Origin: Streptomyces exfoliatus
Lineage (GTDB): Bacteria > Actinomycetota > Actinomycetes > Streptomycetales > Streptomycetaceae
NCBI RefSeq assembly: GCF_000725545.1
Contig: NZ_JNZP01000024.1
Location: forward strand, 1 to 64,000
DNA: 64,000 bases
Direction: 5' to 3'
Position 1 is the first letter of the stretch; every line of letters begins with the position of its first letter. Below the pieces are notes generated by a model. The model searched no databases. It was not told the origin of the DNA and was given only the letters and a program-made list of their open reading frames with translations. Made by a program: the position numbers and the translations under genes. This document shows, in pieces, positions 2 to 57,283 of the stretch.

Positions 2-3000
2 GATCACGTCCTCAGCTACAAGTGGACGCTGCCCGACGGCACCGACGTGACCACCGGCGGCAACCAGGTCCAGACGGCTCTGCCGTCGGCCGTCGCCCCT
101 GGTGACAGTGTCGATCTCCAGGCCGTGGTGAAGACCCCGATCAACTCCGACAACGGCAACAAGCGTACTGACTACGTCCTGACCTGGGACGTCTACAACA
201 AGACCACCGGCACCTGGACGTCCGGCACCTCCGGCATCCCCGGTCTGAAGCAGAACGTGGCCGTGGAGGACCCCACCTCCAACCAGCTCGGCCTGGAGAA
301 GTTCTACTCCTACACCGGCAAGAACACCGGCGCCGGCCTCACGGTCATGAACAACCTGTCCTCGGGCAACAGCGTCTGGACGTACAACGCGTTCACCAAC
401 CCCGGCCGGGGCCTGAACACGTTCTTCCGCGTCGCGTACAACAGCCTCGACACCTCGGACACGGTGGCCGGTCACGGCTGGTCGTTCCAGGCTGCGGGCC
501 CGGTCCGGCTGGGCGCGCCGCTGGAGTTCCACCCGAAGCCGCACCCGACGGAGATCCGTCTCCCGGACGGCGACGGCACCACCCACGTCTTCCGCTGGGA
601 CAGTGTGAACAGCGTCTGGAAGGCCCCCGCGGGCGTCCACTACAAGCTGACGGCCAAGGCCGGCCTCGACTGCACGCCGCTGAAGGACCCGATCCCCGAC
701 GCCTGGACGATGACGCGTCCGGACGGTTCGCGGTTCGTGTTCGGCTGCGACGGCTACCTGACGTCCGCGATCGACCAGAACGGCAACACCCAGACCTACA
801 CCTACGAGGAACGCAAGTCCAACAACAAGCCGACGAAGTTCCTCCGTTACATCACGGACCCGTCCGGCCGTCAGACGCTCACCGTCGACTACTACGGCAA
901 GGGTGACGCCGCTTACGAGTACATCAACGACTCGGGCGCCAAGGTCAGCGGCACCAACCTGACCAACTCGAAGATCTACGACCACATCAAGTCGGTCACG
1001 GACATCTCCGGGCGCAAGATCGGCTTCTACTACACGACGAAGGGTCTGCTGGGTCAGTTCACCGACGGTGTGGGTTCCGCCCAGCCGAAGAACTTCCGGT
1101 TCACCTACGACGCGACTCAGGGCAACAAGAACGTCAAGCTCGTCAAGGCCACCGACCCGCGCGGAAACGCCAGCTCGATGGCGTACTACGCCCCGCAGGC
1201 CGGTGACGACCCGAAGTACCACTGGTGGACCAAGACGATCACTGACCGCCTCCAGGGCACCACGGGCTTCGCGTATGCCGTGAACGCGGTCAACAGCAAG
1301 TTCACGGACACCAAGGTCACCGACGCGGAGAACCACGCGACGGACTACGTGGCGGACGACTTCGGCCGCCCCGTCCAGACGACCAACGCCAAGTCCCAGA
1401 CCACCAAGATGAGCTGGGACGCGGACAACAACGTCACGTACCTGGAGGAGGCCAACGGAGCCAAGTCCGCCTACTGCTACGACCAGAAGACGGGCTTCCC
1501 GCTCTGGCAGCGCAACGCGGAGCACAACAAGGCGGGCGTCCCGGCGCAGTCCGAGTGCGCCCCCGGCACGTATCCGGCGAACGCGGCGACGTTCCAGTAC
1601 CAGACCCGCGCGGACGGATACTCCGCCGACCTGTTCCGCAAGTCGTCCCCTGAGGGGCGTACGTGGGAGTTCGGCTACGACGCCTTCGGCAACCTGAAGA
1701 CGGTCACCGACCCCAAGGGCGTCTCGACCACGACGGCGGGTGACTACACCACCTCGTACGAGTACAACTCCTACGGCCAGCTGACCAAGGCCACCGACCC
1801 CAACGGCAATCCGACGACGTACAGCGACTTCGGTCCGACGGGCTACCCGCACGGCATCACCGACGCGAAGTCCCACCGGACGACGTACGTCTACGACGCG
1901 CGTGGCCAGGTCACCGAGGTCACCGACGCGTTGGGCAAGAAGACCACGCAGACGTACGACACGTTCGGCCGTCCCCTGACGAGGACGGTGCCGAAGGACC
2001 AGGCCGCCGGCGACGTGATCACCATTCCGGCGCCGGAGTACGACGCCAACGACAACATCACCAAGTCGACGGCCCCCAACGGCTCCGTGTCCACCGCGGT
2101 GTACGACGTCACGGACCAGATCACGGCGGCGACCGGCCCGGCCAACAACCAGACCGCCTCGCGCACCACCTCGTACACCTACGACAAGGTCGGCAACGTC
2201 AAGACGGTCACCGAGCCCAAGGGCACGCTGACCACGTCCGTCGCGACGGACCACGTCACCACGAGCCACTACGACGAGATCTACCAGCTCACCTCCGTGG
2301 TCAACGCGGAGGGCGCCAAGCTCTCGTACGAGTACGACAACGTCGGCAACGTCGTCAAGGTCATCGACCCGAAGAAGAACGCGACCGCCGACACCACCGA
2401 CTACACGTCCAAGTCGACCTACGACCTCGCCCACCGGGTCACCTCGGCCACGGACGCGGCGGGGAAGACGACGTCGCAGACCTACGACAAGGACTCGCTG
2501 GTCGTCTCGACCACCGACGCCGAGAACAACGTCACCACCGTCGCCTACGACGAGCGTGGCAAGCGGAAGGAGGTGAAGGTCCCGCACGACGGCACCTCGC
2601 CGATCACGTACCGCACGACGAAGTACGAGTACGACCAGGTCGGCAACATCACCAAGGTCCTCACCCCGCGGGCGACCGCGGCCGGCAGCACCGAGGCCTT
2701 CACCGCCCGAACGACGTACGACGAGCTGAACCGGCCGGTCCGGCAGTACCAGCCGTACGACCCGAGCGACGCCCGCTACAACAAGGCGGACGTCTACCGG
2801 GAGACCCAGTACGACGCGGTCGGCAGGACGGCGAAGACCTCGCTGCCGCCGTCGAACGGCGAGACGGTCCGCAACGACACCACCTACGGCTACTTCGACA
2901 ACGGCCTGGTGAAGTCGGCCAAGGACCCCTGGGACATCGTCACCACGTACGACTACGACACGATGGGTCAGCAGACCACGCGCACCCTCACCTCGGCGGG

Positions 3001-5764
3001 CGGCTCCTCGAACCGCACGATGACGTGGTCGTACTACCCGGACGGTTCGCTGAAGTCCCGCTCGGACGACGGCGTACCGGTCGGCAAGTCGGTCGTCCTC
3101 GCGGACAACTCCGACACCCAGAACACCTCCTCGACCGGCACCTGGGCGAAGGGGAACATCACCGGTCAGCAGGGCTACGACCACGCCACGCATGCGGCGG
3201 GCGCGGGTACGGACGCCTTCACGTGGACGCTGAACATCCCGGCGGACGGTACGTACGACGTGTACGTGCGGTACCCGCAGGTGACGGGCGCGGCCTCGAC
3301 GGCGAAGTACACCCTGACCCACTCGACCGGTACGGTCGACAAGGCGGTCGACCAGAGGGCGAACGCCGGCGGCTGGGTCTCGCTGGGCGCCCACCCCTTC
3401 AAGCAGGGCAACGCGTCCCGCCTGCAGCTGTTCCAGAACAGCGGCGGCACCGTCGTCGCCGACGGCGTGAAGCTCGTCCGTGACACGAGCGGCGGGCCGG
3501 CGGACACGGAGAAGAAGACCCTCGTCTACTCCTACGACGTCAACGGCAACATGACCAAGGTCGACGACACCTCGTCCGGCGCGGCGGTCGACGGCTACAC
3601 GGTCACCTACACCGGCCTCAACCAGATTCAGAAGGTCACCGAGGCGCTGTCCGGCCAGGAGCAGAAGTCGACGTCGTACACGTACGACATCAACGGCCAG
3701 GCGGAGACGGTGTCGCACCCCGACCAGTTCTCGAAGTACACGTACGACCTGCGTGACCTCGTGGCGACCGTGTCCGTCGGCAAGACGTCCACGGACCCCT
3801 CGCCCAAGGTGACGTCGTACACGTACACCGACCGCGGCATGCCGCTGAAGGAGACGAAGGCCAACGGCAACACCGTCGACCACACGTACTACCTCGACGC
3901 GGCGCTGAAGTCGATCACGGAGAAGAAGGCCAACGGCACGCTGGTCTCCTCGCACGCCTACGCCTACGACCCCAACGGCAGCAAGGCGCAGGACGTCGCG
4001 AAGAAGATGAACGCCGACAACCACGCGGCGTACCTCGAATCGACCACCGCCTACACCTACGATCCGGCCGGCCGGCTGGCCAAGTCGGTCAAGACGGGCA
4101 ACGGCGCCGGCACGGACACCTACGTCCACGACGACAACGCCAACGTCGTCAGCCAGACGGTCGACGACGTCACCTCCACGTACGGGTACGACCGCAACCG
4201 GCTGCTGTCCATGACGACGCCGAACGCCACGTTCTCGTACAACTACGACCCGTTCGGCCGCCAGGAGTCCGTCACCTCGGACGGACAGGTCATCGAGCGG
4301 AGCGTGTACGACGGCTTCGACCGTCTCGTCGAGTCCCAGACCATGGGTGACACGGGCGCGCTGAAGTCCACCACGTACACGTTCGACCCGCTGGACCGCA
4401 CCACGTCCAAGACGGCCGACGGCAAGACGACGAAGTTCGCGTACCGGGGTCTCTCCTCGGAGATCCTGGACGAGAAGGTCGCGAACGCGGTGACCAAGTC
4501 GTACCAGTACGGCCCGTCGGGCCAGCGTCTGTCGCAGGTCAAGCACAACACCGACGGCACGACCGAGGACGGCTACTACGGTTACAACAGCCACACCGAC
4601 GTCGAGACGCTGACGGACAGCAGCGGTGACACGAAGGCGACCTACGGGTACACGGCGTACGGAAAGGACGACAAGGCCGAGTTCACCGGCATCGACAAGC
4701 CGGTCGCGGCCGATCCCACGAAGGAGGCCTACAACCCGTACCGGTACAACTCCAAGCGCTGGGACGCCCAGTCCGGCACGTACGACATGGGATTCCGGAG
4801 CTACAACCCGGGCCTGAACCGCTTCACCACGCGGGACATGTACAGCGGAGCCCTCTCCGACATGAACCTCGGCATGGATCCGTTCACCGGCAACCGGTAC
4901 GCCTTCGCGGGTGGCAACCCGACCAGCATGGTGGAGCTCGACGGGCACCTGCCGTGCGCCGAGGGCATCATGGACGTCTGCGGCGGGGGCGCGAGCACGG
5001 CCGGTGCCTGGTGCCTGGTCTGCGCGACGAACGCCAACCCGGGTATGGCCAAGCCGCGGGCACACATGCCCGCGGTGGAGAACGGTGACCTGAAGAACAT
5101 CGTCGAGGAACTCTACGCACGGGACTTCGTCAAGGACTCCGACGTCCAGGGCGACGGCCGGACGGCCACCGCGCTGATCCAGGAGTACAACACGGGTAAG
5201 CCGGTGGGTAAGTGGCATGCCGAGAAGGCGTCCAACAAGCTGAAGGGACTGGCGGGCCTTCTCGAGCAGGACCGGAAGGCCCGGGTGGGCGGCGGTAACG
5301 GCATCCTCTCGGACGCCGACCTCAAGGTGGCCAAGAGCGAGGCGGCCGACCTGTGGAACGCGCTCAACGCGAAGGACGTAGCGGGTGCCGCGACCGCCCA
5401 TGTGCAGTCCCACCCGGAGACGCTCAAGGCCATCACGAAGAACCGGGAGGACATCATCAAGTCCGTGGCCATGGCGGACATCACGGGCCAGGCCTTCGAG
5501 CAGCACCATCCCAAGGCAGCTCCGAGGCCGGTCGGTGAGCCCACGAAGCTCAGCGGCGGATACAAGGCCTTCGGTGTCGTCGGCGGCGTGGCGAGCGCCG
5601 CGCAGGCACCCAGTTACGTGCGGCAGTACGGCTGGAAGCGTGGCGCGTGGGAGCTGTTCAAGGACGTGGTCGACCCCCTTGGCATGTCGGACAATACGAC
5701 CGACCCGTTCTATCCTGAGGACACCGGGCCCTGCGGCCCCAGGGGTATCTACTGCCAGGCGTAG
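2..5764 (+). CDS. Rhs/YD-repeat polymorphic toxin, 5' end outside window
   Basis: The reading frame is open from base 2, so the true start lies upstream; the first in-window start-like codon is GTG 47 and residues are numbered from it. The protein is a long run of Tyr-Asp (YD) repeats (many 'Y.YD..GN' units), typical of Rhs shells that encapsulate a C-terminal toxin. Residues about 1010-1150 form an inserted beta-sandwich resembling golvesin C-terminal-like domains. The Rhs core closing motif is at about 1565-1635 (RYNSKRWDAQSGTYD ... YNPGLNRFTTRD ... NRYAFAGGNPTS), followed by a variable tip of about 270 residues. The tip has six Cys near its ends, a short hydrophobic stretch (FGVVGGVASAAQAPSYV) and no toxin motif I recognise. 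In the family, the tip is the released toxin and the next gene is its immunity partner. The shell call is firm; the toxin activity is unknown. Confidence 0.93.
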   Translation, partial: DHVLSYKWTLPDGTDVTTGGNQVQTALPSAVAPGDSVDLQAVVKTPINSDNGNKRTDYVLTWDVYNKTTGTWTSGTSGIPGLKQNVAVEDPTSNQLGLEKFYSYTGKNTGAGLTVMNNLSSGNSVWTYNAFTNPGRGLNTFFRVAYNSLDTSDTVAGHGWSFQAAGPVRLGAPLEFHPKPHPTEIRLPDGDGTTHVFRWDSVNSVWKAPAGVHYKLTAKAGLDCTPLKDPIPDAWTMTRPDGSRFVFGCDGYLTSAIDQNGNTQTYTYEERKSNNKPTKFLRYITDPSGRQTLTVDYYGKGDAAYEYINDSGAKVSGTNLTNSKIYDHIKSVTDISGRKIGFYYTTKGLLGQFTDGVGSAQPKNFRFTYDATQGNKNVKLVKATDPRGNASSMAYYAPQAGDDPKYHWWTKTITDRLQGTTGFAYAVNAVNSKFTDTKVTDAENHATDYVADDFGRPVQTTNAKSQTTKMSWDADNNVTYLEEANGAKSAYCYDQKTGFPLWQRNAEHNKAGVPAQSECAPGTYPANAATFQYQTRADGYSADLFRKSSPEGRTWEFGYDAFGNLKTVTDPKGVSTTTAGDYTTSYEYNSYGQLTKATDPNGNPTTYSDFGPTGYPHGITDAKSHRTTYVYDARGQVTEVTDALGKKTTQTYDTFGRPLTRTVPKDQAAGDVITIPAPEYDANDNITKSTAPNGSVSTAVYDVTDQITAATGPANNQTASRTTSYTYDKVGNVKTVTEPKGTLTTSVATDHVTTSHYDEIYQLTSVVNAEGAKLSYEYDNVGNVVKVIDPKKNATADTTDYTSKSTYDLAHRVTSATDAAGKTTSQTYDKDSLVVSTTDAENNVTTVAYDERGKRKEVKVPHDGTSPITYRTTKYEYDQVGNITKVLTPRATAAGSTEAFTARTTYDELNRPVRQYQPYDPSDARYNKADVYRETQYDAVGRTAKTSLPPSNGETVRNDTTYGYFDNGLVKSAKDPWDIVTTYDYDTMGQQTTRTLTSAGGSSNRTMTWSYYPDGSLKSRSDDGVPVGKSVVLADNSDTQNTSSTGTWAKGNITGQQGYDHATHAAGAGTDAFTWTLNIPADGTYDVYVRYPQVTGAASTAKYTLTHSTGTVDKAVDQRANAGGWVSLGAHPFKQGNASRLQLFQNSGGTVVADGVKLVRDTSGGPADTEKKTLVYSYDVNGNMTKVDDTSSGAAVDGYTVTYTGLNQIQKVTEALSGQEQKSTSYTYDINGQAETVSHPDQFSKYTYDLRDLVATVSVGKTSTDPSPKVTSYTYTDRGMPLKETKANGNTVDHTYYLDAALKSITEKKANGTLVSSHAYAYDPNGSKAQDVAKKMNADNHAAYLESTTAYTYDPAGRLAKSVKTGNGAGTDTYVHDDNANVVSQTVDDVTSTYGYDRNRLLSMTTPNATFSYNYDPFGRQESVTSDGQVIERSVYDGFDRLVESQTMGDTGALKSTTYTFDPLDRTTSKTADGKTTKFAYRGLSSEILDEKVANAVTKSYQYGPSGQRLSQVKHNTDGTTEDGYYGYNSHTDVETLTDSSGDTKATYGYTAYGKDDKAEFTGIDKPVAADPTKEAYNPYRYNSKRWDAQSGTYDMGFRSYNPGLNRFTTRDMYSGALSDMNLGMDPFTGNRYAFAGGNPTSMVELDGHLPCAEGIMDVCGGGASTAGAWCLVCATNANPGMAKPRAHMPAVENGDLKNIVEELYARDFVKDSDVQGDGRTATALIQEYNTGKPVGKWHAEKASNKLKGLAGLLEQDRKARVGGGNGILSDADLKVAKSEAADLWNALNAKDVAGAATAHVQSHPETLKAITKNREDIIKSVAMADITGQAFEQHHPKAAPRPVGEPTKLSGGYKAFGVVGGVASAAQAPSYVRQYGWKRGAWELFKDVVDPLGMSDNTTDPFYPEDTGPCGPRGIYCQA

Positions 5765-43115: not shown

Positions 43116-43254
43116 TGTTCACTCCTCTGACGTTCGGCCTCACCCCAGACTCTGCCACGGGGCGGGTGCCGGGCTGCGCATCGGATCATGCCCACCTAGG
43201 CTGACGCTGTCCTTTTGAGTGTCTTCTGTCCGTAAAGGTTCTCGCGGGAGTCCC

Positions 43255-44238
43255 ATGGTCGTCGTCCAGCCCGTCGTCGTGCCCCCCGAGCGGGCGGCCC
43301 TCTTTCTGGTGGCCACGGTCAACCCCGGCGGTGAGGCCACGGTGGCGGAGGCCCTCCAGGAGCTGACGGGGCTGACCCGGTCGGTGTCCTTCCGCTACCC
43401 CGACGACGGCCTCAGCTGTGTCGTCGGCATCGGCTCCGAGGGCTGGGACCGGCTCGTCGGCGGCCCGCGCCCCCGCGAACTCCACCCCTTCCCGGCCCTG
43501 CGGGGCCCCCGCCACCGCGCCCCGGCGACCCCCGGTGACCTGCTCTTCCACCTGCGCGCCCGCCGTATGGACCTCTGCTTCGAGTTGGGTCGGCTGATCG
43601 TGGAACAGCTCGCGGGCGCGGTGACCGTCGTCGACGAGGTGCACGGCTTCGCGTACCTCGACGAGCGCGACCTCCTCGGCTTCGTCGACGGCAGCGAGAA
43701 CCCGGCGGGCCAGGTGGCCTCCGAGGCGGTCCACGTCGGCGACGAGGACCCTCCGTTCCGCGGCGGCAGCTACGTCGTCGTGCAGAAGTACCTGCACGAC
43801 ATGGCGGCCTGGGACTCGCTCACCGTCGAGCAGCAGGAGCAGGTCATCGGGCGCGCCAAGGCGTCCAACGTCGAGATGTCCGACGACGTCAAACCGGCGG
43901 ACTCGCACGTGGCGCTGACCACCGTCGTCGACGAGGACGGTGGTCAGCGGCAGATCCTCCGCGCGAACATGCCGTTCGGGAGGGTGGGCAGCGGAGAGAT
44001 CGGCACGTACTTCATCGGCTACGCGCGCACCCCGGCCGTGACCGAGCTGATGCTGCGCAACATGTTCCTGGGGGACCCGCCGGGCAACACCGACCGCATC
44101 CTCGACTTCTCCCGGGCCGTCACCGGCGGCCTCTTCTTCGTGCCGAGCGCCGACTTCCTCGACGACCTGCCCGCCGCGCCGCCGCCCGCCGCCCGCCAGG
44201 GGGACTCCCTGGGCATCGGCGGCCTGAAAGGAGCCTGA
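43255..44238 (+). CDS. Dye-decolourising peroxidase (DyP type B), encapsulin cargo
   Basis: 327 aa. DyP motifs: LLGFVDGSENP (GxxDG with catalytic Asp), proximal heme His in ADSHVALT, distal Arg in ILRANMPFG, and FFVPSADFLDDLP near the end. The C-terminal peptide GDSLGIGGLKGA is the classical encapsulin-targeting signal, so the enzyme is packaged inside the shell encoded by the next gene. ATG 43255 follows GCGGGAG; an upstream ATG at 43219 was rejected for lack of a ribosome site. The encapsulin gene starts 4 nt after the stop. Confidence 0.95.
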   Translation: MVVVQPVVVPPERAALFLVATVNPGGEATVAEALQELTGLTRSVSFRYPDDGLSCVVGIGSEGWDRLVGGPRPRELHPFPALRGPRHRAPATPGDLLFHLRARRMDLCFELGRLIVEQLAGAVTVVDEVHGFAYLDERDLLGFVDGSENPAGQVASEAVHVGDEDPPFRGGSYVVVQKYLHDMAAWDSLTVEQQEQVIGRAKASNVEMSDDVKPADSHVALTTVVDEDGGQRQILRANMPFGRVGSGEIGTYFIGYARTPAVTELMLRNMFLGDPPGNTDRILDFSRAVTGGLFFVPSADFLDDLPAAPPPAARQGDSLGIGGLKGA

Positions 44239-44242
44239 GTCC

Positions 44243-45085
44243 ATGACGACCCCCGACGCCCCGAGCGACTCGTACAGCGGTACCGACACGAACAACCTGC
44301 ACCGCGAACTCGCCCCGATCACCCCGGCGGCCTGGGCCGAGATCGAGGAGGAGGCCCGCCGCACGTTCCGGCGCAACGTCGCTGGCCGCCGCGTCGTCGA
44401 CGTCCCCGACCCGGCGGGACCGGAACTCGCCGCCGTCGGCACGGGGCACCTCACCGACATGAGCCCGCCGGCCCCCGGCGTCACGGCGCGCCTGCGCGAG
44501 GCGAAACCCCTCGTCGAACTCAGGGTGCCGTTCACCGTGGACCGGGCCGCCGTCGACGACGTCGAGCGGGGCGCGAAGGACTCGGACTGGCAGCCGGTGA
44601 AGGACGCGGCGCGTGCCATGGCCTTCGTCGAGGACCGGACGATCTTCGACGGGTACGGGGCGGCGGGCGTCGACGGGCTGCGTGCCCGGTCGTCGAACCC
44701 GGTGGTCCGGCTGCCCGCCGAACCGCGCGACTACCCCGACGCCGTCAGCAGGGCGCTGACCTCACTGCGGCTCGCGGGCGTCGACGGCCCGTACGCGCTG
44801 CTCCTCGGGGCCGAGGAGTACCGGGCGGTCAGCGAGACCTCCGACCACGGCTACCCGATCGCGGCACACCTCGGGCGCATGCTCGACGGCTCCCCGATCT
44901 GGGCGCCCGCGCTGAGCGGCGGCTTCGTCCTGTCCACCCGTGGCGGCGACTTCGAGCTGCGCCTCGGCCAGGACCTGGCGATCGGCTACACGTCGCACGA
45001 CGCGAACAGCGTCCAGCTCTACTTCCAGGAGACCCTGACCTTCCGTACGTACACGGACGAGGCCGTCGTCGTACTGGAGGCCTGA
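44243..45085 (+). CDS. Family-1 encapsulin shell protein (HK97 fold)
   Basis: 280 aa, typical for linocin M18/CFP29-type encapsulins. Recognisable parts are NNLHRELAPITPAAWAEIEEE at the N-terminus, GARSSNP-like loop (RARSSNPVVRLP), YALLLGAEEYR, GSPIWAPALSGGFVLSTRGG and DLAIGYTSHDANSVQLYFQE. It should assemble into a protein nanocompartment that loads the DyP through its C-terminal peptide. Ribosome site AAGGAG at 44228-44233 lies within the end of the DyP gene, so both form one operon. Confidence 0.96.
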   Translation: MTTPDAPSDSYSGTDTNNLHRELAPITPAAWAEIEEEARRTFRRNVAGRRVVDVPDPAGPELAAVGTGHLTDMSPPAPGVTARLREAKPLVELRVPFTVDRAAVDDVERGAKDSDWQPVKDAARAMAFVEDRTIFDGYGAAGVDGLRARSSNPVVRLPAEPRDYPDAVSRALTSLRLAGVDGPYALLLGAEEYRAVSETSDHGYPIAAHLGRMLDGSPIWAPALSGGFVLSTRGGDFELRLGQDLAIGYTSHDANSVQLYFQETLTFRTYTDEAVVVLEA

Positions 45086-47260: not shown

Positions 47261-48340
47261 CTAGACCCAGTTGACGCCCGCCGCCGCGAGCAGCGGGTCG
47301 TCGACCAGTTCCCAGAGCGGGACGGCGAAGTTGCCCGTGCGGTAGCGGCCGCCGAAGTGCAGGCCGAGGACGCGGTGGTCGGTGAGGTCGAAGACCGGGG
47401 AGCCGCTGTTGCCGCCCAGCGTCGAGCAGTCGTGCTTCATCACCAGGCCGCCCGGGGTGAACTCGGTCGCCGCCCCCGGCTGGAGCCGCTTCACGTTGTA
47501 GACGTCCATGAAGATCCGGCGCATCGACTCGGGTTCGTTGCGCCGGCCGTCCCAGGCCGGATACCCGACCACGTACACCGGGCGGCCGGGGACGCTCGCG
47601 GGCGCGTCCGCCGCGACCGCCAGCGGGGTGGGCAGGCCGCCGTCCGCCGAGGGCTCGACCCGCAGCAGGGCCATGTCGACGTCCGGGTGGATGCCGATGA
47701 TCTCCGTGACCTCGTACGGGACGGAGGCCCCGGGCGGCTCGCCGTCGAGCGGCAGCTCCTCCGCCGGGTCGACCCGCGCCGACATCCCGTACTCGAAGGT
47801 CCAGTCGACGCCGTCGTCCTGGAGGCGGCTGAACTCCACCGCCACATGACGGTTCGTCATCACCGCGCCGGGCCCGACGACGAAGGCAGTGCCGACCCAG
47901 TCGAGGCGTGGGTGCCCGGTGACCTCGACCCGGCCGACCCGCGCCAAGGACTCACGGATCGCCGCCCGTTGGGAGTCGAGGACCGCCCACTCGTCGCGCT
48001 GCGGGGCGAAGTCCTGGCGCTGGACCAGGATCGCGGGCCGGCCCTCCAGGAGGACGATCGCCTCCACGCCGAAGCTCTCGTCCCCGTCGAGCTCGTCCTC
48101 CCGGTGCGCGGCCAGCTTCTCCAGACCGCTGACCCCGGCCTCCAGGACACGGGCCCGCTCCTCGCGGGCGAAGCGCGATATCTCGGCCGCCGGTGCCGCG
48201 CCGGCGGGCAGCTCGAAGGTGGACTCGGCGATCTCCGCCTCCAGGTCACCGCGCACCCGCGCGGCCACCGCCCGCAGATCCCCGAAGATCCGCTCCGTCG
48301 CGGTCGCGACCGGCGACACGCTCCGTGGTCCGTTCGGCAT
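47261..48340 (-). CDS. Cytoplasmic trypsin-like serine protease of the STAND-protease module
   Basis: 359 aa from ATG 48340-48338, with GAGGTGA 6 nt upstream overlapping the end of the giant upstream gene. Residues 1-140 are a helical N-terminal region without a signal peptide. The chymotrypsin-fold protease has His in MTNRHVAVEF, Asp in PDVDMALLRVE and Ser in LGGNSGSPVF, so the triad is complete. The fold resembles V8/Glu-endopeptidase-like bacterial trypsins. It is the last gene of a minus-strand operon headed by a nuclease and a 1785-aa STAND protein with its own trypsin domain. No secretion signal means it acts inside the cell. Role is likely effector or activator in a conflict system. 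Confidence 0.9.
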   Translation of the reverse strand: MPNGPRSVSPVATATERIFGDLRAVAARVRGDLEAEIAESTFELPAGAAPAAEISRFAREERARVLEAGVSGLEKLAAHREDELDGDESFGVEAIVLLEGRPAILVQRQDFAPQRDEWAVLDSQRAAIRESLARVGRVEVTGHPRLDWVGTAFVVGPGAVMTNRHVAVEFSRLQDDGVDWTFEYGMSARVDPAEELPLDGEPPGASVPYEVTEIIGIHPDVDMALLRVEPSADGGLPTPLAVAADAPASVPGRPVYVVGYPAWDGRRNEPESMRRIFMDVYNVKRLQPGAATEFTPGGLVMKHDCSTLGGNSGSPVFDLTDHRVLGLHFGGRYRTGNFAVPLWELVDDPLLAAAGVNWV

Positions 48341-48346
48341 GGTCAC

Positions 48347-51300
48347 TCACCTCGGCCTTCCGTTCGTCGCGTTCCCCGGGGCGGGCCGCCCCGACTGGGC
48401 CGCCATGATCTCCTCGTACAACTCCGGCCTGAACTGCCTGAGATGGGCCAGGATGCCGCTCATCTGCGTCCCGACGTTCACGAACCTGGTCCTGGCGCCC
48501 TGGAACTCGACCTCGTCCACCTTCCGTGTCCCGCGGTGCAGCCCCACCACCGTCCAGTCGTCGAGACAGACCGGTGAGCCGGACGAGCCGCCACGGGTGT
48601 CGGTGAAGTACAGGAGGTCGTGCTCGTCCGCCCGGTAGACCAGGTTGTTGCGCAGCGCGACCCGCTTCGGCAGGCCCCCGGGGTGCTGGATGATGTTGAC
48701 GGGAACGCGCTGCCGTTCCCGGACGAGGAGCGGCCGGGTGGCGACCCGGAGCGTCGGGCGCCGTTCCTGGTCGGAGGAGAGCCGCACGATGGCGTAGTCG
48801 AGCGCCGCGTCCCAGGCGGCGAGTTCACCGGCCGTCGCCTCCGGCGCCGCCGCCGTGTTCTCGACGAAGTCGAAGCGGGAGCGGGACATGAGCGCCTGCA
48901 GCCGCAGGTCCTCGTCGCTCACGTAGGGCCGTACGCCCGACTCCCACGAACGGGCCATCACCACATGGTGGTTGGTGATCAGCAGGCCGGGGGCGATCAT
49001 CCAGCCCGTACCGCCGTGCGGATAGGAGGGCAGCAGCGGGGCGCCCGACTCGTACGGCGGGATCCTCAGCAGGGCGACCGAGGATCCGGCCCGGATGCCG
49101 CCGTGCAGGAACTCGTATGGCACGGTGTCGTCCTGGAGGATGACCTCCTCCTTCATTTCTCCCGGCATCATGTCCGCGGGCAGCTCCGCCTCGCCGGTGA
49201 TCGCGCGGGCCACGGTGTCGAGGGCGCCCTGAAGGACGGCGCGCGGGCCCGGTTCACGGGTCAGCTCGATCGCGTTGTGCAGCCAGATCTCCAGCGGCAC
49301 CAGCCCGTCGATCAGCCGCTCGACCTGGTTCATCGCGTTCAGGTCGGCGTGCACCTGCTCCCGGGGGTCGTCCAGCGCTTCGAGCGTGGACGTGAAGTGG
49401 CCGGGGACGCCGACGAGCAGGGCGGGACGCAGGGACCGGTCCGCGAGACCCGCCTCCATGGCGGCGTTGCGGAGCCGGACGAGCTCGGGCTGCGGCAGGA
49501 ACGGTTCCTTGCGGAGCGCGGCCCCGGCCGCGGTCGGCGGCGGGCGCGTCCACAGCCCCGTACCGCCGTGGCGGGGGCGGGGGCCCGCCCAGATGTCGGG
49601 CTCCCCGCTGCCGGGCGCGCGAGCGCGCGAGGACGCGCCGCGTGCGGTTCCGGCCAGGCGTGCCGCGCCGCGCGGCAGCGGGCCCGCGTCCATCGCGGAG
49701 GCGACCCCGAGCAGCAGGTCGCCGCTGCCGTCCCGGAGCGTCAGCGCCTGCCGCGCGACACTGTCCAGGGTGCCGCGCCGCCGCGCCTCCCGCAGGTCCC
49801 GCTCGATCCGGGCACGGTCGAGACGGCCGTCCCCGGGGTACGGCTCACCGGCCGCCGACTCCAGGATGCGGGCCAGTGGCTCGCGGAGCCCCGGCTCGTC
49901 GCCGAGGGTGGTGTCGATCCAGTGGGCCAGTTCCGTCACCACCGCCTCCTCGTCCGCCGGCAGCCCCACGAGCCGCAGCGTGTGCTCCAGGAGCCGGGGG
50001 TCCGCCGGGCAGGCCGCGGCCGCCGCCGTACGGGCCAGGGACGGCTGCCTGGCCAGGTCGGCGTCCGGCATGCCGCGCAGCGTCCGGGCGAGCCGCTCCC
50101 GCGCCGGAGCGGCGTCGACGTCCGCGAGCGACGCGAGCCGCGAGCGGGCGACGAGCACGCCCAGGGACTCGTACCGCAGTCCGAGGCCCGCCGCGATCTC
50201 CTCCGCCTCCTGCAGGTCCCGGTCCGCGTCCGCGAAGTCCCCCGTGTCCTGCGCGAGCCGCGCCGACAGCTGGAGGAGTTCGAGCTGGGTCTCCGCGCAG
50301 CCCGCCTCCGCCGCGCCGTCCACGGCCCGCTCGGCGCTCGCGCGCGCCTCCGCCGTCCGGCCGGACCGGGCGAGGGTCTCGGCGAGCAGCGCGTGCAGCC
50401 GGCTGCACGGCGTCCACGGGCGCCGCTCCGCGAGGCGCTGCGTCGCGGCCTCCACGTACCCCTGGGTGAGCAGGTCCTCGACCTCGCGCGCGGCGATCCG
50501 CTCCCAGTCCTCCTGGTCGGCCTCGGCCATGATCTGGTCGGGCACGTGGCCGCCGATCCTGCCGAGGAGGAACGCGGCCGGTCGGTGCGCCATCTCCAGG
50601 TGCGTCTGGCCGCCCAGGTAGGCGTCCACTCCGGGCTCCCAACGGGCTTCGACCGTGCGGGGGTTCTCGCCGAGCCTGAGCCGGTGGTAGATCTCCTCGG
50701 CGCGATTCCGGGTCCCCTCGCGGGCCGCGTAGTACGCGACGGCGCTGCGGTCGACCGCCCGCATCAGATCGGTGCGCGCGCTGTCGGAGAGCCGCAGCAT
50801 GATGGCGCGCAGATCGGCCCTGTGGCGGATGGCCTCGGGTCCGGCCGGCTCCATCAGGTCGACCCGTGAGGTGAGCAGCCCGTACAGCCGGCGGGCCTCG
50901 CCCGCAGAGTCGACGCGGAGCCCCGCGGGACCGGCGAGCACCTCCCTGACCAGGTCGGGGGTGATGAAGCGGAGGGCGAGGCCCGCCTGGACGAGGGCCC
51001 TGACGTCGTCCTCCGCGATGTGCTTGAGGATGCGGTCGTACAACGTTCCCTGGATCAGCATCTGGTCGACCTGGCGGTCGAAGTACCGCCGCCGGGAGGG
51101 CAGTCCGCGCAGGAGGGAGCCCAGCGAACGGGAGTCGGCGCCCAGGGCGACCGCCGTGCCGGCCGCCAGCCTCAGGCTCAGCGGATGGCCGCCGATCCGG
51201 TCCGCGAGCTCCTCCGCGAGCGTCTCGTCGAGGACCCCGGACGACATCAGGAGGTCCACGGACGCTTCGTGGTCCAGCTCGGTCAGCTCCCTGGTGCGCG

Positions 51301-53704
51301 GCGTGAGGACCCGGGCGGGGTGGTCGATCGGCGCCCGCCCGGAGACGATGAACCGCAGCCGCGAGTACGCCGCCCGCAGCGCCGTCCAGATGGCCCACAT
51401 CCGGCCGAGGACGGGGGAGCCCCGGTACTGGGCCTCCTCGAAGGAGTCGATCACGACGAGCAGCGGGGGCGCCTGCCCGTCGGGCGCGGGCCGGACCGCC
51501 TCGGCGACCAGGGACGCGATCCGGTGGGCGAGTTCCTGCTCGCGGGCGCTGGCGCGGGCGTGGAAGTCGGACGTGTAGTCGCGGGCGAGCGTGGCCCGGG
51601 TGCCGGCGAGGCGGTGGAGTTCGTCGAGTTCGTTGCGTTCGCCCCGCTGGGCCGCCGCGGTCCGCTCGCACTCGTCCGCGAGGGCCTCGAAGGCGGCCCG
51701 GTGACCGGCGTGGTGGACGGCGAGCTGCCGGGCCATCTCCGCGATGACGGTGGCGGGTTCGTGGACGGAGAGCGTGGGGCGCGCGAAGTCGATGTAGACG
51801 AAGGGGAATCCGGTGGGGGACGCGGCCAGCGCGTCGATGAGGAACTTGGCGAGCAGGGTGCTCTTGCCGATGCCGCCGACCCCGTGCAGGAGGACCGGGG
51901 GCTCCGCCGGCTCCTCGGGCAGTGCGAGATAGGCGTGCAGGTCGTCGAGTTCGGCGGTGCGTCCGTGGAAGGTCCCCTGGATCAGCCGGTGCAGAGGCTG
52001 GAGCAGCCGGGCCGCCTCCAGACGGTGCTGGACGACGTCGACGGGAGGCAGCCCGGTGACGCCCGGTACCCGGCTCAGCCAGAGCACGGCCTGCAGGGTG
52101 TCGGACAGCTCCTCGACCTCGTCGCCCGCCGACGACGGCCCGCCGGGGGAGGGGGCGGGGGCGGGGGCGAGTGGCGGGCCGGTGCCGGAGAGCAGGGCGA
52201 GGGCGGTGTGCTCGGGGCCGGAACCCTGCGGGCGCAGGCCGATGTTGACCCGCAGGGCACGCAGCGCGGCACCGGGCCCGGCGAGTCCGGCGAGTGTCGC
52301 GTCGCGGACCTCGGGCTTGAGCGTCCACACCGTGGCGCCGGGAGACGGCAGGGCGGTGCAGTCGTCGACGAGTTCGAGGACGGCGCGCCCGGTGGACAGC
52401 TCCTCGCCCGGCAGCCGGAGCAGTGCGGGGTCGAACTCCTGGAGCAGACAGGCGGCCTCGCGGTAGGAGCGGCGCGGGTCGGGCAGCGCGGCGGCGGGAG
52501 CCGAGAGGGTCGCGCGCAGGGTGTCGCGCAACAGCGGGGCGGCCTCCCCGGGCGGGGCCGACGTCCGGGGCAGTGCCCGGTGGAGTCGTACGACGTCCTC
52601 CACTGCCGTGCACAGCCTGCGCATGTGACTCTCCCCGTTCGGCGGGGAGTCGACGGCGCGCAGCACTTCGCTCACGGCCGTCTCCGTCAGCTCGCGGACG
52701 GACTCCTCCCAGCCGGGGGCGGTGGTGTCGGTCGCGTCGGTGAAGAACTCCTCGAAGAAGCGGCGGAGATCGTCGGCGTCGGCCGGACGGGCGGTGTCCC
52801 GGCACTCGTTCTTGCGGATTTCGTAAGGGAGTTGACGCATGGTCTCGGCGTAGCCGAGCAGCACGAGCCGGGGCACGGTCTCGGCCCGTACCGGAGTGTG
52901 CTCGTAGATCGCCCGTGCCAGCACGCCGATGGCGTCCCACGCGTCGGCGTGCGGGTCGAGCCGGTCGCAGTCGTCGAGGACGAGCCAGAAGCGGTCCTCG
53001 GCGGCGGTCGCACGGGCGACGATCTTGTGGGCGGCGTCCTCGAGGGCGGGCAGTGGATCGTTCAACCGTGTGGGATTCAACGGAAATCCGTCGGCCTCCG
53101 GTCCCGCCACGAAGGCCGCCAGCCGCTCCATCAGACGCGCCGCCGTCGACGTACGGGACAGGGTCACCCGGACCGGACGGAAGCCGAGGTGCTGGCCGAG
53201 ATGGCGGATGAGTTCGTACGTGTACGAGCGCCCGCTGTCCGGGGGACCGTCGACGATCAGGACCGTCTGCTCCGGGTCGGCGACGAAGCCCCTGAGCCTC
53301 TCGCGCAGCTCGGACCGGTCGAGGAACACCTCGGTGCCGTGCTTCAGGAGCTGACTGTCGAACGGGTCCCGCCGTGCACGCCGCAGCCCTTCGTCCTCGC
53401 GCAGCCGGGTGAGCAGGTTGCGGGCCTCCGCGCCCTGCTCGTAGCCGTGCGGGTCGTCGATGGCGGCCAGCGCGTCGAGACCGGCGAGGACGGCGAGGAG
53501 CCGGCGCTGATGGGCGATGTCCCGGCGGGCGGCCTCCACCACGAGGGCGGCGTTCCGGTCGGCGTCCGGGGTGAGCGGCAGGTCCTCGACGAAACCGGCC
53601 GGGAGACCGGCGCGCAGCAGCCGTTCGCGTGGGTCGGGGGTATCGAGGAGGTGGTCCCGCACCCAACGGGCGACGAGCCCCCACTCCGTCTCGGTGAGCG
53701 GCAT
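48347..53704 (-). CDS. Giant EAD-like/double-NTPase/helical-repeat/trypsin protein (STAND-type)
   Basis: 1785 aa. Residues 1-95: small helical domain resembling effector-associated (death-like adaptor) domains. About 140-300: first P-loop-like module with degenerate Walker A GPPDSGRSYT (Arg replaces Lys) and Walker B FWLVLDDCDRLD. About 570-800: second, intact STAND/AAA NTPase with an entry motif FHGRTAELDDLHAYL, Walker A LLHGVGGIGKSTLL at about 605-618 and Walker B LLVVIDSFEEAQ at about 750; SGGHPLS-like GGHPLSLRLAAG follows. About 900-1330: helical/TPR-like repeats. About 1400-1500: second EAD-like domain (LRNAAMEAGLADRSLRPALL). C-terminus: trypsin domain with His in LITNHHVV (about 1578), Asp in ALDYAIVRL (about 1636) and Ser in RGGSSGSPV (about 1709). 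Presumably an oligomerising sensor that activates its protease. Confidence 0.9.
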   Translation of the reverse strand: MPLTETEWGLVARWVRDHLLDTPDPRERLLRAGLPAGFVEDLPLTPDADRNAALVVEAARRDIAHQRRLLAVLAGLDALAAIDDPHGYEQGAEARNLLTRLREDEGLRRARRDPFDSQLLKHGTEVFLDRSELRERLRGFVADPEQTVLIVDGPPDSGRSYTYELIRHLGQHLGFRPVRVTLSRTSTAARLMERLAAFVAGPEADGFPLNPTRLNDPLPALEDAAHKIVARATAAEDRFWLVLDDCDRLDPHADAWDAIGVLARAIYEHTPVRAETVPRLVLLGYAETMRQLPYEIRKNECRDTARPADADDLRRFFEEFFTDATDTTAPGWEESVRELTETAVSEVLRAVDSPPNGESHMRRLCTAVEDVVRLHRALPRTSAPPGEAAPLLRDTLRATLSAPAAALPDPRRSYREAACLLQEFDPALLRLPGEELSTGRAVLELVDDCTALPSPGATVWTLKPEVRDATLAGLAGPGAALRALRVNIGLRPQGSGPEHTALALLSGTGPPLAPAPAPSPGGPSSAGDEVEELSDTLQAVLWLSRVPGVTGLPPVDVVQHRLEAARLLQPLHRLIQGTFHGRTAELDDLHAYLALPEEPAEPPVLLHGVGGIGKSTLLAKFLIDALAASPTGFPFVYIDFARPTLSVHEPATVIAEMARQLAVHHAGHRAAFEALADECERTAAAQRGERNELDELHRLAGTRATLARDYTSDFHARASAREQELAHRIASLVAEAVRPAPDGQAPPLLVVIDSFEEAQYRGSPVLGRMWAIWTALRAAYSRLRFIVSGRAPIDHPARVLTPRTRELTELDHEASVDLLMSSGVLDETLAEELADRIGGHPLSLRLAAGTAVALGADSRSLGSLLRGLPSRRRYFDRQVDQMLIQGTLYDRILKHIAEDDVRALVQAGLALRFITPDLVREVLAGPAGLRVDSAGEARRLYGLLTSRVDLMEPAGPEAIRHRADLRAIMLRLSDSARTDLMRAVDRSAVAYYAAREGTRNRAEEIYHRLRLGENPRTVEARWEPGVDAYLGGQTHLEMAHRPAAFLLGRIGGHVPDQIMAEADQEDWERIAAREVEDLLTQGYVEAATQRLAERRPWTPCSRLHALLAETLARSGRTAEARASAERAVDGAAEAGCAETQLELLQLSARLAQDTGDFADADRDLQEAEEIAAGLGLRYESLGVLVARSRLASLADVDAAPARERLARTLRGMPDADLARQPSLARTAAAAACPADPRLLEHTLRLVGLPADEEAVVTELAHWIDTTLGDEPGLREPLARILESAAGEPYPGDGRLDRARIERDLREARRRGTLDSVARQALTLRDGSGDLLLGVASAMDAGPLPRGAARLAGTARGASSRARAPGSGEPDIWAGPRPRHGGTGLWTRPPPTAAGAALRKEPFLPQPELVRLRNAAMEAGLADRSLRPALLVGVPGHFTSTLEALDDPREQVHADLNAMNQVERLIDGLVPLEIWLHNAIELTREPGPRAVLQGALDTVARAITGEAELPADMMPGEMKEEVILQDDTVPYEFLHGGIRAGSSVALLRIPPYESGAPLLPSYPHGGTGWMIAPGLLITNHHVVMARSWESGVRPYVSDEDLRLQALMSRSRFDFVENTAAAPEATAGELAAWDAALDYAIVRLSSDQERRPTLRVATRPLLVRERQRVPVNIIQHPGGLPKRVALRNNLVYRADEHDLLYFTDTRGGSSGSPVCLDDWTVVGLHRGTRKVDEVEFQGARTRFVNVGTQMSGILAHLRQFRPELYEEIMAAQSGRPAPGNATNGRPR

Positions 53705-53877
53705 TCCGCACCTGTCCGGCGCTCTCGGCGCAGCGCCGGTCGCTCCGGCGCCGGGACGTGACAGACCGGGTCAGAACACGCACCCGATCCCTTCCATCGT
53801 TTCACCGGCCCCTGGCGGCCGCAATCGCGAGCGGGCGCCCGCGGGAAGCGGCAGCGGCGGGACGGGCGCCGTCGGCC

Positions 53878-54765
53878 TCAGGGGTGCAGCACGATGTCCT
53901 CGAACGACTCCAGGCGCCGCCAGCGCTCCTCGGGCGCCCGCGTCGGAGGCATCACGTCCACGTCGGGCAGCGGCCCGAACTCCAGCTCGGTGATCTCCGC
54001 GACGTCCGCGACCGGCACCTGGTACGTACGGTACGGGCCCAGTGGCGGCGGCGCTCCGGCCGTCGCCCCCGCGAGCGCCCGTTCCGCGTCCCGGCTCAGG
54101 TCGGGGCTCTGGTCGAGGACGTACCCGGCGGCGGCGAGCGCCCCGTCCTGGAGGAACGCGGCCACCTTCCAGAAGCGCATCGGCACCTGGATCCCCCGGT
54201 ACGGCGGATCGGAGTCCTGGAGCACAGGCCCCGTCAGCACCGTCAGCCTCCGGTCGAACGCGGCGGCGTGGTCGAGGAGGTAGTTCTCCAGGCCCTGCCA
54301 GATCTTCTTGCCCTGGTTGAAGACGTCCGCCTGGGGTGCGGCGTTGGTGAAGTGGAAGGTGTCCGCGTCGGCCGCGAGTGCCACGGCAGGGGTCCCCCAG
54401 ACCGGATCGAGCCTGCGGACCAGATGACCGCGGTCGAGACTGTTGTTCCGGTAGACGTCGTCGCCCGCCTGCTGTTCCTCGGGCAGTCGGGGATCGAACC
54501 GCCAGACGTCGTTCCTCGGCACGTCCTCCCGCAGCTCCCGCCCCTCGACGCACACCGCCGTCGAGGCGGCGAGACGCCGGTCGGGCCGGAAGACCACGGT
54601 GAAGTGGGTGTACGGCAGGATCACCGTCGCGACCGTCGGCCGGGCGGGCAGCGGCAGCGGGACGACCGGGCCGAGGAAGCTCTCGTCGTATCCGGTGCGG
54701 TCGGCGGGCGCGGCACGGCCGGCGCCGCCCGCGCCGGGAGGGGGCGGGGGATCGGAAGGGTTCAT
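53878..54765 (-). CDS. DNA/RNA non-specific endonuclease (NUC family) without signal peptide
   Basis: 295 aa from ATG 54765-54763. The beta-beta-alpha-metal active-site motif is NNSLDRGHLVRR (DRGH), and the helper motif TNAAPQADVFNQGKKIW is the expected second block of the Serratia-nuclease family. The N-terminus is Pro/Gly-rich (SDPPPPPGAGGAGRAAP) with no Sec or Tat signal, unlike most secreted members, so the enzyme appears to be cytoplasmic. It begins a minus-strand set (nuclease, STAND-trypsin giant 173 bp later, trypsin) and is divergent from a metacaspase. It could be the toxic effector restrained or released by these proteases; this is inference. Confidence 0.9.
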   Translation of the reverse strand: MNPSDPPPPPGAGGAGRAAPADRTGYDESFLGPVVPLPLPARPTVATVILPYTHFTVVFRPDRRLAASTAVCVEGRELREDVPRNDVWRFDPRLPEEQQAGDDVYRNNSLDRGHLVRRLDPVWGTPAVALAADADTFHFTNAAPQADVFNQGKKIWQGLENYLLDHAAAFDRRLTVLTGPVLQDSDPPYRGIQVPMRFWKVAAFLQDGALAAAGYVLDQSPDLSRDAERALAGATAGAPPPLGPYRTYQVPVADVAEITELEFGPLPDVDVMPPTRAPEERWRRLESFEDIVLHP

Positions 54766-54883
54766 ACGATGTAGGTACCGCGTGGAGAGGGTCGCGCTCG
54801 GCGCCGGACCACAGGCCACTCGATCAGACGCCCCGGTGTCCCCTCCGCTTCCCGCCAGGAGGCACACCCGCCAGGAGGAACCC
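54766..54883. promoter_or_regulatory. Divergent control region of the nuclease and metacaspase genes
   Basis: 118 bp shared by both 5' ends. It carries a 12-nt direct repeat CCCGCCAGGAGG at 54851-54862 and 54867-54878; the second copy supplies the AGGAGG ribosome site of the metacaspase. No clear -10/-35 pair was found. Shared regulation of the two operons is likely from position alone. Confidence 0.5.
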
Positions 54884-55693
54884 ATGGCCACCGGACTCGC
54901 CCTGCACATCGGACTCAACCGGGTCGACCCCGCCCACTACGACGGCTGGGACGGCGCCCTGGTCGCCTGCGAGAACGACGCCCACGACATGGCGCGCCTC
55001 GCCCGCACCGCCGGATTCGAGAGCACCGTCCTGCTCACCGCCGACGGCACCGTCGCCAACGTCACGGCCGTGCTCGGCGAGGCCGCCGCCCGGCTCAGCC
55101 CCGGCGACATCCTGCTCCTCACCTACTCGGGGCACGGCGGCCAGCTGCCCGACGCCACCGGCTCCGACGACGAGCCGGACGCCCTCGACGAGACACTGGT
55201 CCTCTACGACCGCCAGTTCCTCGACGACGAGGTCAGGCGGACCTTCCGCGCCTTCGCCGACGACGTGCGGATCGTCTCCTTCTTCGACTGCTGCCACAGC
55301 GGCAGCAGCATCGAGGTCCCCGGCGGCGAGGCGGACGGCGTCAGGGCCCGCTACCTGCCCGAGCCCCAGCAGCACCGGCTGTACGAACGGGACCGGGAGT
55401 TCTTCGACGAGCTGCGGCGGTCGCTGGCGAAGGACGCGCCGGCCGACGGGGCGGCCAGGGACGCGCTGCTCGTGTCGGCCTGTCAGGACAACCAGTTCGC
55501 CGCCGACGGAGACGTCAACGGAGCTTTCACGGCGGCCCTGTTGCAGGTGTGGGACGACGGCGCGTTCCGGGGCGGCTACCGCGACTTCCACCGGGCGATC
55601 CAGCGGCGGCTTCCCCCGACCCAGAGCCCGAACCTGTACGTGACCGGCACACCGGGCGAGGAGTTCCTGAACCAGCGGCCGTTCACGGTCTGA
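54884..55693 (+). CDS. Metacaspase/orthocaspase-type cysteine protease
   Basis: 269 aa, about the size of a bare caspase p20-p10 domain. Catalytic His is in LLTYSGHGGQLPD and catalytic Cys in VSFFDCCHSGSS. Acidic residues after the His (DDEPDALDETLVLYD) resemble the metacaspase S1 pocket, predicting Arg/Lys specificity, not Asp. The fold starts with ALHIGLNRVDPAHYDGW and has the LVSACQDNQFA segment. No signal peptide or added adaptor domain. ATG 54884 follows AGGAGG. It is divergent from the nuclease/STAND-trypsin operon and most likely part of the same system. Confidence 0.93.
   Translation: MATGLALHIGLNRVDPAHYDGWDGALVACENDAHDMARLARTAGFESTVLLTADGTVANVTAVLGEAAARLSPGDILLLTYSGHGGQLPDATGSDDEPDALDETLVLYDRQFLDDEVRRTFRAFADDVRIVSFFDCCHSGSSIEVPGGEADGVRARYLPEPQQHRLYERDREFFDELRRSLAKDAPADGAARDALLVSACQDNQFAADGDVNGAFTAALLQVWDDGAFRGGYRDFHRAIQRRLPPTQSPNLYVTGTPGEEFLNQRPFTV

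Positions 55694-55855: not shown

Positions 55856-57283
<1,428 letters not shown>

Follow-up and report, generated by a model that had tools for sequence, protein, structure and literature searches.

A conserved Streptomyces module of a STAND-trypsin giant, a second trypsin, a NucA-type nuclease and a metacaspase, and its probable kinship with NucA-trypsin and LypABC systems

Cell-death effectors that are switched on by proteolysis are now known in several bacterial immune systems; to our knowledge, a single nuclease is accompanied by both a metacaspase and serine proteases in few of them. CARD-NLR systems were reportedly described by Wein in 2025, in work that Banks 2026 cites. Here we describe a locus with such a combination in a 64,000-nucleotide stretch of Streptomyces exfoliatus DNA (the window; contig NZ_JNZP01000024.1, contig 24 of 128 in a genome of 7.87 Mb), made up of a nuclease (NUC), a 1785-residue protein (the giant), a trypsin-type protease (TRY) and a metacaspase (CASP). 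Related systems have been described in papers that are cited here from extracts. System 3 of Kaur 2020 combines a NucA nuclease with trypsins and in some cases a STAND-trypsin protein; a proteolytic cascade deploying NucA was proposed for it (PMC7159879). The LypABC system of Caulobacter, which is CARD-NLR-like and serves the release of gene transfer agents, causes lysis that needs the protease serines of LypA and LypC and the Walker residues of LypB (Banks 2026, PMC13236601). Trypsins or caspases serve as activating partners of a nuclease of the metallo-beta-lactamase (MBL) fold in Hachiman, AVAST and canu, and protease-activated pro-nucleases, one caspase-nuclease pair among them, protect against phage (Tuck 2025, PMC12799240).

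The locus proves to be a genuine module that is conserved and coherent. It occurs in 40 of the 392 Streptomyces genomes sampled, has a constant core beside exchangeable cargo, and encodes its giant in one, two or three genes. In our reading it is probably an intracellular, NLR-like (STAND) sensor-protease-effector module that kills or arrests the cell. With this module, the sequence of steps in a death pathway of several proteases can be tested directly, and a bacterial metacaspase would gain a defined set of partners.

The four genes and their relatives

Four neighbouring open reading frames (ORFs) fill positions 47261-55693, with NUC, giant and TRY following one another in this order on the minus strand and CASP diverging on the plus strand across 118 bp of intergenic DNA; because it is transcribed divergently, CASP lies outside the operon.

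47261..48340, minus strand: TRY, 359 amino acids, likely ATG start at 48340
48347..53704, minus strand: giant, 1785 amino acids, a fused pseudo-ATPase, STAND-TPR and EAD5-trypsin protein
53878..54765, minus strand: NUC, 295 amino acids, likely ATG start at 54765
54884..55693, plus strand: CASP, 269 amino acids, likely ATG start at 54884

An earlier note on this DNA had described four adjacent genes with intact catalytic residues, no secretion signals, and NTPase, helical-repeat and EAD-like domains in the giant. The first of these statements holds, as the ORFs are open, the Pfam domains are present and the residues are kept in orthologues. The second agrees with a hydropathy scan (no dedicated signal-peptide program), in which no hydrophobic N-terminal stretch or membrane segment was found in the four proteins, the 19-residue maximum being 1.16 to 1.22. 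All of the named domains were found, and the description of the giant can be refined to two NTPases and an EAD5 domain placed before the trypsin. For a single pair, the window and L015, the ratio of non-synonymous to synonymous substitution rates is about 0.23 to 0.30 for all four genes, which are thus under purifying selection in that pair.

NUC is an Endonuclease_NS protein (PF01223, 145.7 bits, no other Pfam family) of the NucA/EndoG type with a DRGH motif; it matches EndoG at E 1.9e-4, and its catalytic His is present in 34 of 35 aligned orthologues, the window among them. Its N-terminal motif DRTGYDESFLG resembles in alignment the protease-nuclease linker of trypsin-NucA fusions, and a D-R-x-G-Y/F...F-L motif returns, varied, in the linkers of these fusions; because it is found there, the motif is a possible hinge or processing region. 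An apparent loss of DRGH in NUCs that lack CASP or giant, suggested by a pattern scan, was rejected, since the residues are mostly D-K-G-H or E-R-G-H with the His intact. Two Streptomyces Endonuclease_NS proteins of 618-652 amino acids (L074:7107-9065 and L075:6965-8821) have an N-terminal half ending in a trypsin-like GLHFGG; Pfam makes no trypsin call in this half, and the proteins are perhaps divergent trypsin-NucA fusions.

CASP is a divergent, metacaspase-type protein, with Peptidase_C14 (PF00656, 88.9 bits) as the only domain in a Pfam search apart from a chance-level GYF, and with no Ig-like domain found. It resembles Geobacter GSU0716 (PDB 3bij), deposited as an uncharacterised protein, along its whole length (phmmer E 3.5e-77), and scores 36.4 bits against NF047832, the model for the EACC1-associated caspases of Kaur System 4, below the cut-off of 140. 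His and Cys are kept in 33/33 aligned orthologue rows, the window included. In second copies of the locus in two genomes (L034 and L042) the caspase motif reads DCCNSG in place of DCCHSG.

Both trypsin-fold proteases are Trypsin_2 proteins in Pfam. In TRY (72 bits) the His and Ser motifs are present in 33 of 34 loci, the sole miss being truncated by a contig end, and in the giant's trypsin the triad is kept in 37/37 aligned orthologues, the window among them. TRY matches V8-type glutamyl endopeptidases at E 5.7e-7, and the giant's trypsin matches these enzymes weakly, at best E 0.0033 (phmmer). Both carry Thr190 and His213, numbers that follow chymotrypsin and that we took from the alignment; Thr/Ser190 and His213 are called mandatory S1 elements of glutamyl endopeptidases in the extracts used here of PMC5508998. 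TRY also scores 54 bits against the PADLOC 'nacht' model; at E 0.1 PADLOC assigned none of the four proteins to an Avs family.

The giant reads from its N-terminus as follows.

53456..53704, minus strand: residues 1-83, six short predicted helices, an AlphaFold2 block with a predicted local distance difference test (pLDDT) score of ~54 to 83
52505..53317, minus strand: residues 130-400, first NTPase (NTP1), with AAA_22 at 146-262 (Pfam) and a degenerate Walker A (GRS)
51095..51997, minus strand: residues 570-870, STAND NTPase, with AAA_16/NACHT at 579-762 (Pfam) and an intact P-loop
50105..50587, minus strand: residues 1040-1200, TPR-like helical repeat, a putative sensor arm (TPR_2 weak, E 0.046)
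49103..49501, minus strand: EAD5 (PF19957), residues 1402-1534, 142 bits (Pfam)
48539..49012, minus strand: C-terminal trypsin, Trypsin_2 at residues 1565-1722, 65 bits

The first 100 residues have no Pfam match at E 10. Arg replaces Lys in the Walker A of NTP1, and this R159 is invariant in 16/16 sequences, while the P-loop GxxGxGK[ST] of the second NTPase is present in 37/37 loci. In a structure search with an AlphaFold2 model of residues 1-1199 (pLDDT 74.6), the STAND domain matched the NTPases of CED-4, APAF1 and plant NLRs, with Cdc6/Orc1 equally strong; the structural matches span STAND/AAA+ ATPases generally and therefore allow no choice between NLR families. The TPR-like repeat matched the TPR of LGN. 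EAD5 sits immediately ahead of the C-terminal trypsin.

Relatives of these proteins occur together on plasmids. TRY matches 32 plasmid records, many of them annotated as DNA/RNA non-specific endonuclease and others as PLD-like or S8 peptidase. On the Paraburkholderia plasmid pSYMBR3459 an operon encodes a 603-residue trypsin protein, a 1031-residue STAND ATPase and a 662-residue trypsin-NucA fusion, of which TRY corresponds to the N-terminal half (36% identity, E 5e-36) and NUC to the C-terminal half (39% identity, E 2e-49). The STAND part of the giant matches the LypB-like ATPase of this operon at E 1.9e-19 (4.6e-14 with low-complexity masking) and a Paracoccus LypB-like protein at BLAST E 3e-8; hhalign gave 99.7% with these two LypB-like proteins. 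As a control, the STAND part gave no match at E 1 to an adjacent LuxR-type STAND protein or to a TIR-STAND protein. On a S. cellulosae plasmid (L062:7815-13683) a TRY homologue is followed by a 1625-residue trypsin-TIR-STAND protein with an 83% identical relative at L072:3140-9113, which makes this another type of trypsin-plus-STAND module in the genus.

Co-inheritance, core and cargo

In sample A, 392 Streptomyces genomes searched at E 1e-100 for the STAND part and at E 1e-60 for NUC and for CASP, the STAND part was found in 40 genomes (41 loci), NUC in 42 (43 loci) and CASP in 46 (47 loci). NUC and CASP both lie within 12 kb in 31/41 giant loci, and in 31/31 of these NUC shares the strand of the giant and CASP is encoded on the other. 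The other giant loci have CASP only (3), NUC only (2) or neither nearby (5, one with an apparent contig break), and at four of the giant loci NUC and CASP are absent from the whole genome at E 1e-60. The expectation of the earlier note that these genes belong together, instead of being routinely found apart, is thus largely borne out. Sample B comes from a pattern scan with the giant, which detects only close relatives and covered a single genome for each prokaryote species; it comprises 34 loci, all with Streptomyces titles, and its species may overlap with those of sample A. The complete set of components is present in 28 of these 34 loci, and three of the remaining six are truncated by contig ends. 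Of the 34, 31 have CASP, 30 have NUC (contig ends cut three loci on that side, and L036 lacks NUC) and 32 have TRY, which is contig-cut in one; the loci without TRY (L034 and L042) are second, divergent copies in genomes that also hold a first copy. By eye, a short remnant of a hydrolase gene apparently lies between NUC and the first NTPase in these two copies. Gene order was identical in all loci read.

Fisher tests of genome presence gave p values of 3e-29 to 6e-33, which come from related species and so are not independent. More telling are the flanks and the protein distances: blastn separates 15 loci into seven or eight groups that share no flank, and the pairwise distances measured for the module proteins correlate with one another at r 0.83 to 0.98 across 30 loci and the window. 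In a further sample of 101 genomes, strong matches to giant and TRY occurred in the identical seven genomes, adjacent in 7/7, and each protein also had a single weak match elsewhere, in a different genome (37% identity).

These observations bear on the view that the locus is a mere linkage of a STAND-protease system with an unrelated, independent pair of caspase and nuclease, a view that draws on the components found on their own. Leaving out the contig break G688, which makes a thirteenth CASP locus without giant, there are 12 giant-less CASP loci and 9 giant-less NUC loci, and all 12 lone CASPs belong to a more distant group with 53-59% identity. No pair of caspase and nuclease was seen apart from the giant, however: the 9 lone NUCs all lack a CASP in their vicinity, and the 12 lone CASPs likewise lack a NUC. 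Order and orientation are fixed in 31/31 loci, the flanks show seven or eight contexts, the protein distances are correlated, and TRY-NUC fusions exist elsewhere. We therefore regard mere linkage as very unlikely. Two orphan NUCs keep TRY alongside after giant and CASP are gone, with TRY frame-shifted in one of them.

The giant itself is a fused operon. In sample B it is one protein in 21/34 loci, as in the window; its EAD5-trypsin part is a gene of its own in seven, and the first NTPase, STAND-TPR and EAD5-trypsin parts are three genes in five, while L044 is contig-cut and its form not assignable. NTP1 is a separate ORF in L043, L045, L046, L047, L048 and L067. The single 1785-residue gene that the earlier note described is hence the form of the window, split into two or three genes in relatives. 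In 8/34 loci (one contig-cut) an additional alpha/beta-hydrolase gene, which has a GHSLGS motif and is absent from the window locus, lies between NUC and the first NTPase; its Pfam matches were under the cut-off in the one tested.

NUC and CASP proved not to be obligatory. A full core follows the hydrolase in the absence of NUC or CASP in four loci (G555, G539, G623 and G668), two loci (G502 and G064) have NUC and hydrolase with no CASP, and two loci outside Streptomyces (L094 and L095) hold the first NTPase, STAND-TPR, EAD5, trypsin and TRY, with no match to NUC, CASP or hydrolase within the 19 kb fetched. EAD5 occurs in 9 of 374 Actinomycetes genomes, of which four lie outside Streptomyces; two of these are L094 and L095, and in the other two (L096 and L097) core parts were unrecognised save for a weak EAD5 match in L097. 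Core genes of L086, L087 and L094 were recovered by tblastn, having been missed by GC-bias gene calling. The pseudo-ATPase, STAND-TPR, EAD5-trypsin and TRY therefore make up a constant core; NUC, CASP and the alpha/beta hydrolase are variable cargo, because the core occurs without them.

The exchangeable cargo gives some room to an explanation in which NUC is not the killer: the locus would be a proteolytic alarm whose STAND-protease core brings about lysis via an outside factor, with NUC, CASP and hydrolase as accessory weapons or regulators. The four loci with core and hydrolase but neither NUC nor CASP speak for it, as do the two with none of the three cargo genes and, in the extracts of PMC13236601, the lysis still caused by LypC nuclease mutants. 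On the other side, NUC is the first gene of the operon, and its catalytic His is kept in 33/33 giant-linked copies read. Orphan NUCs have lost this His in 2/7 read (L065 and L099), residues having been read for 7 of the 9 with G581 and G515 left out; the comparison of 2/7 with 0/33 is drawn from related sequences, and His retention is a weak hint that the module maintains NUC activity. On balance we consider the alarm possible but on the unlikely side.

The closest relative among the loci found is that of S. griseoluteus (L016), with ~95 to 98% identity across the module proteins. In the window's clade the neighbours of the locus stay constant, most loci being flanked on one side by a LuxR-type regulator. 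This constancy can be read in favour of a role in developmental or stress-linked programmed cell death of the Streptomyces mycelium, the same machinery serving no phage defence; a metacaspase with an EndoG-type nuclease resembles death programmes, and LypABC, according to the extracts of PMC13236601, is used for gene-transfer-agent release, not defence. Patchy presence (40/392 genomes), several insertion sites, and the second divergent copies in two genomes (L034 and L042) all have the look of accessory defence and not of core development; they argue in the other direction, and we think a developmental role improbable.

Other features of the surroundings are as follows.

54815..54827, minus strand: CTGWTCGRGTGGC motif upstream of NUC, in the CASP-NUC intergenic region 54766-54883, a candidate promoter or operator

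CTGWTCGRGTGGC has one match in the window, where chance expectation is 0.73 with one mismatch allowed, and an overlapping pattern, TGWTCGRGTGGCC, occurs in 32 of 99 fetched loci, redundant loci counted in. A similar motif also adjoins two orphan NUC copies (L064 and L093). NUC has no Shine-Dalgarno sequence evident by eye and may be leaderless. The gene beside CASP, at 55856-57283, scores 848.6 bits against the NCBIfam cut-off of 800 for rifampin monooxygenase. At 43219-45085 the window holds genes of 339 and 280 amino acids, which we take to resemble a Dyp-type peroxidase and an encapsulin, and this pair recurs near the module in many relatives. A big ORF at 2-5764 looks RHS-repeat-like by eye, with an AT skew of 0.23-0.32.

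Possible mechanism and points against it

The combination of domains suggests an intracellular system for conflict or cell death, like those catalogued by Aravind and colleagues, in agreement with the earlier note. That note had the protease cascade release the nuclease, a step to which it gave too much certainty. In the sensor-protease-effector reading that we favour, the giant's STAND-TPR part, with the pseudo-ATPase as partner domain, would at rest be an ADP-bound monomer, and the proteases would be off. The TPR arm would read an invader signal, presumably from a phage, upon which the STAND domain would oligomerise and cluster the attached EAD5-trypsin domains, thereby switching them on. 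These would then cut after Glu, directly or via TRY, and the proteases would activate or release the effectors, with NUC degrading DNA or RNA. CASP may act as a second protease, of basic-residue type, placed beside or below the serine proteases in a cascade whose order we propose here, and the cell would die or stop growing ahead of the spread of the invader.

A more elaborate version of this scheme, which we regard as doubtful, is a two-branch apoptosis-like machine in which NLR-like clustering would activate Glu-specific serine proteases and these, jointly with a metacaspase, would switch on a pro-nuclease of the EndoG/NucA family. Such a machine would have an origin separate from that of the caspase and MBL nuclease of canu, and its sensor and first protease would have been fused stepwise from a split operon into the giant.

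Several observations weigh against the sensor-protease-effector reading. The association counts derive from related species in one genus, and NUC lacks a nearby giant at 10/43 loci, one of them the probable contig break G688. A pro-domain or gate was not found in NUC (AlphaFold2 model of low confidence, pLDDT 45), 5/7 orphan NUCs read retain the catalytic His, and the dispensability of the LypC nuclease residues for Caulobacter lysis (PMC13236601) means that NUC may not be the executor. EAD5 is a single copy in the genome (PF19957, 147.7 bits, the one match at a threshold of E 0.01) and misfits the usual EAD pairing rule. Cleavage after Glu by both serine proteases is a prediction only, because the determinants of Glu preference are unsettled in the reviewed extracts of PMC5508998, one enzyme's His213 mutant having retained the preference. 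As for the ties to LypABC, hmmsearch with the STAND profile did not return the Paracoccus LypB-like protein at E 10, and a link between the pseudo-ATPase NTP1 and the LypA ATPase was not statistically established by BLAST, hmmsearch or hhalign: shuffle tests gave z from <0 to 4, with z 2 for the LypB control, and the likeness, a Trp-hydrophobic-Asp strand and a 'GY' strand, is seen by eye only.

Comparison with known systems

The earlier note knew of no characterised system with these four genes. NucA, trypsin and STAND are in fact a known combination, in Kaur System 3 and in the LypABC layout; the metacaspase, EAD5 and the fusion are new. Among open-licence papers, which are weak evidence here, no title or abstract described this module in Streptomyces.

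Judged by its sequence, the module falls within the core definition of NucA-trypsin systems, with a NucA/Endonuclease_NS nuclease and same-strand trypsins (TRY and the giant). It shares with System 3 a NucA-type nuclease accompanied by several trypsin-like proteases, in operon or fused, with trypsin-STAND proteins in some. Of the optional STAND-bDLD2-trypsin protein of System 3, the giant has STAND and trypsin, together with EAD5 and the six-helix block at residues 1-83. In the extracts of PMC7159879, System 3 is mostly alphaproteobacterial, carries EAD1 or the Death-like bDLD2 where the present locus has EAD5, and places the trypsin N-terminal to STAND, whereas it is C-terminal in the giant; a metacaspase is unmentioned in the extracted System 3 section.

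With LypABC the module shares an NLR-like TPR ATPase, the LypB-like plasmid proteins being homologous to the giant's STAND part, and two trypsin-fold proteases, a trypsin-endonuclease of the LypC kind being homologous to TRY plus NUC; each also has a degenerate second ATPase domain in the extracts of PMC13236601, although hhalign gave no match between the two. Here, in contrast, no CARD was recognised and EAD5 stands on the activating protease in its place (hhalign probability 1% between EAD5 and the N-terminal region of two LypA-like proteins, sequence profiles only), TRY and NUC are separate genes, components are fused into the giant, and a metacaspase has been added.

Like canu and other nuclease-protease pairs, the locus combines a caspase or trypsin gene with a nuclease, and, as in AVAST, in a STAND context (extracts of PMC12799240). 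Those extracts describe a nuclease of metallo-beta-lactamase fold and an Ig-like domain in CanA, whereas we find Endonuclease_NS, a different fold family, and a bare Peptidase_C14 caspase, transcribed divergently, in which an Ig-like domain was not found; on these two grounds the module is not canu. The domain set is thus already known, and what is new is the metacaspase, EAD5 in place of CARD, the split of TRY and NUC, and the fusion of the operon. As part of the intracellular sensor-protease-effector reading, the locus would seem, on the likelier interpretation, to be an actinobacterial cousin of the NucA-trypsin systems of Kaur System 3 and of the LypABC/CARD-NLR systems.

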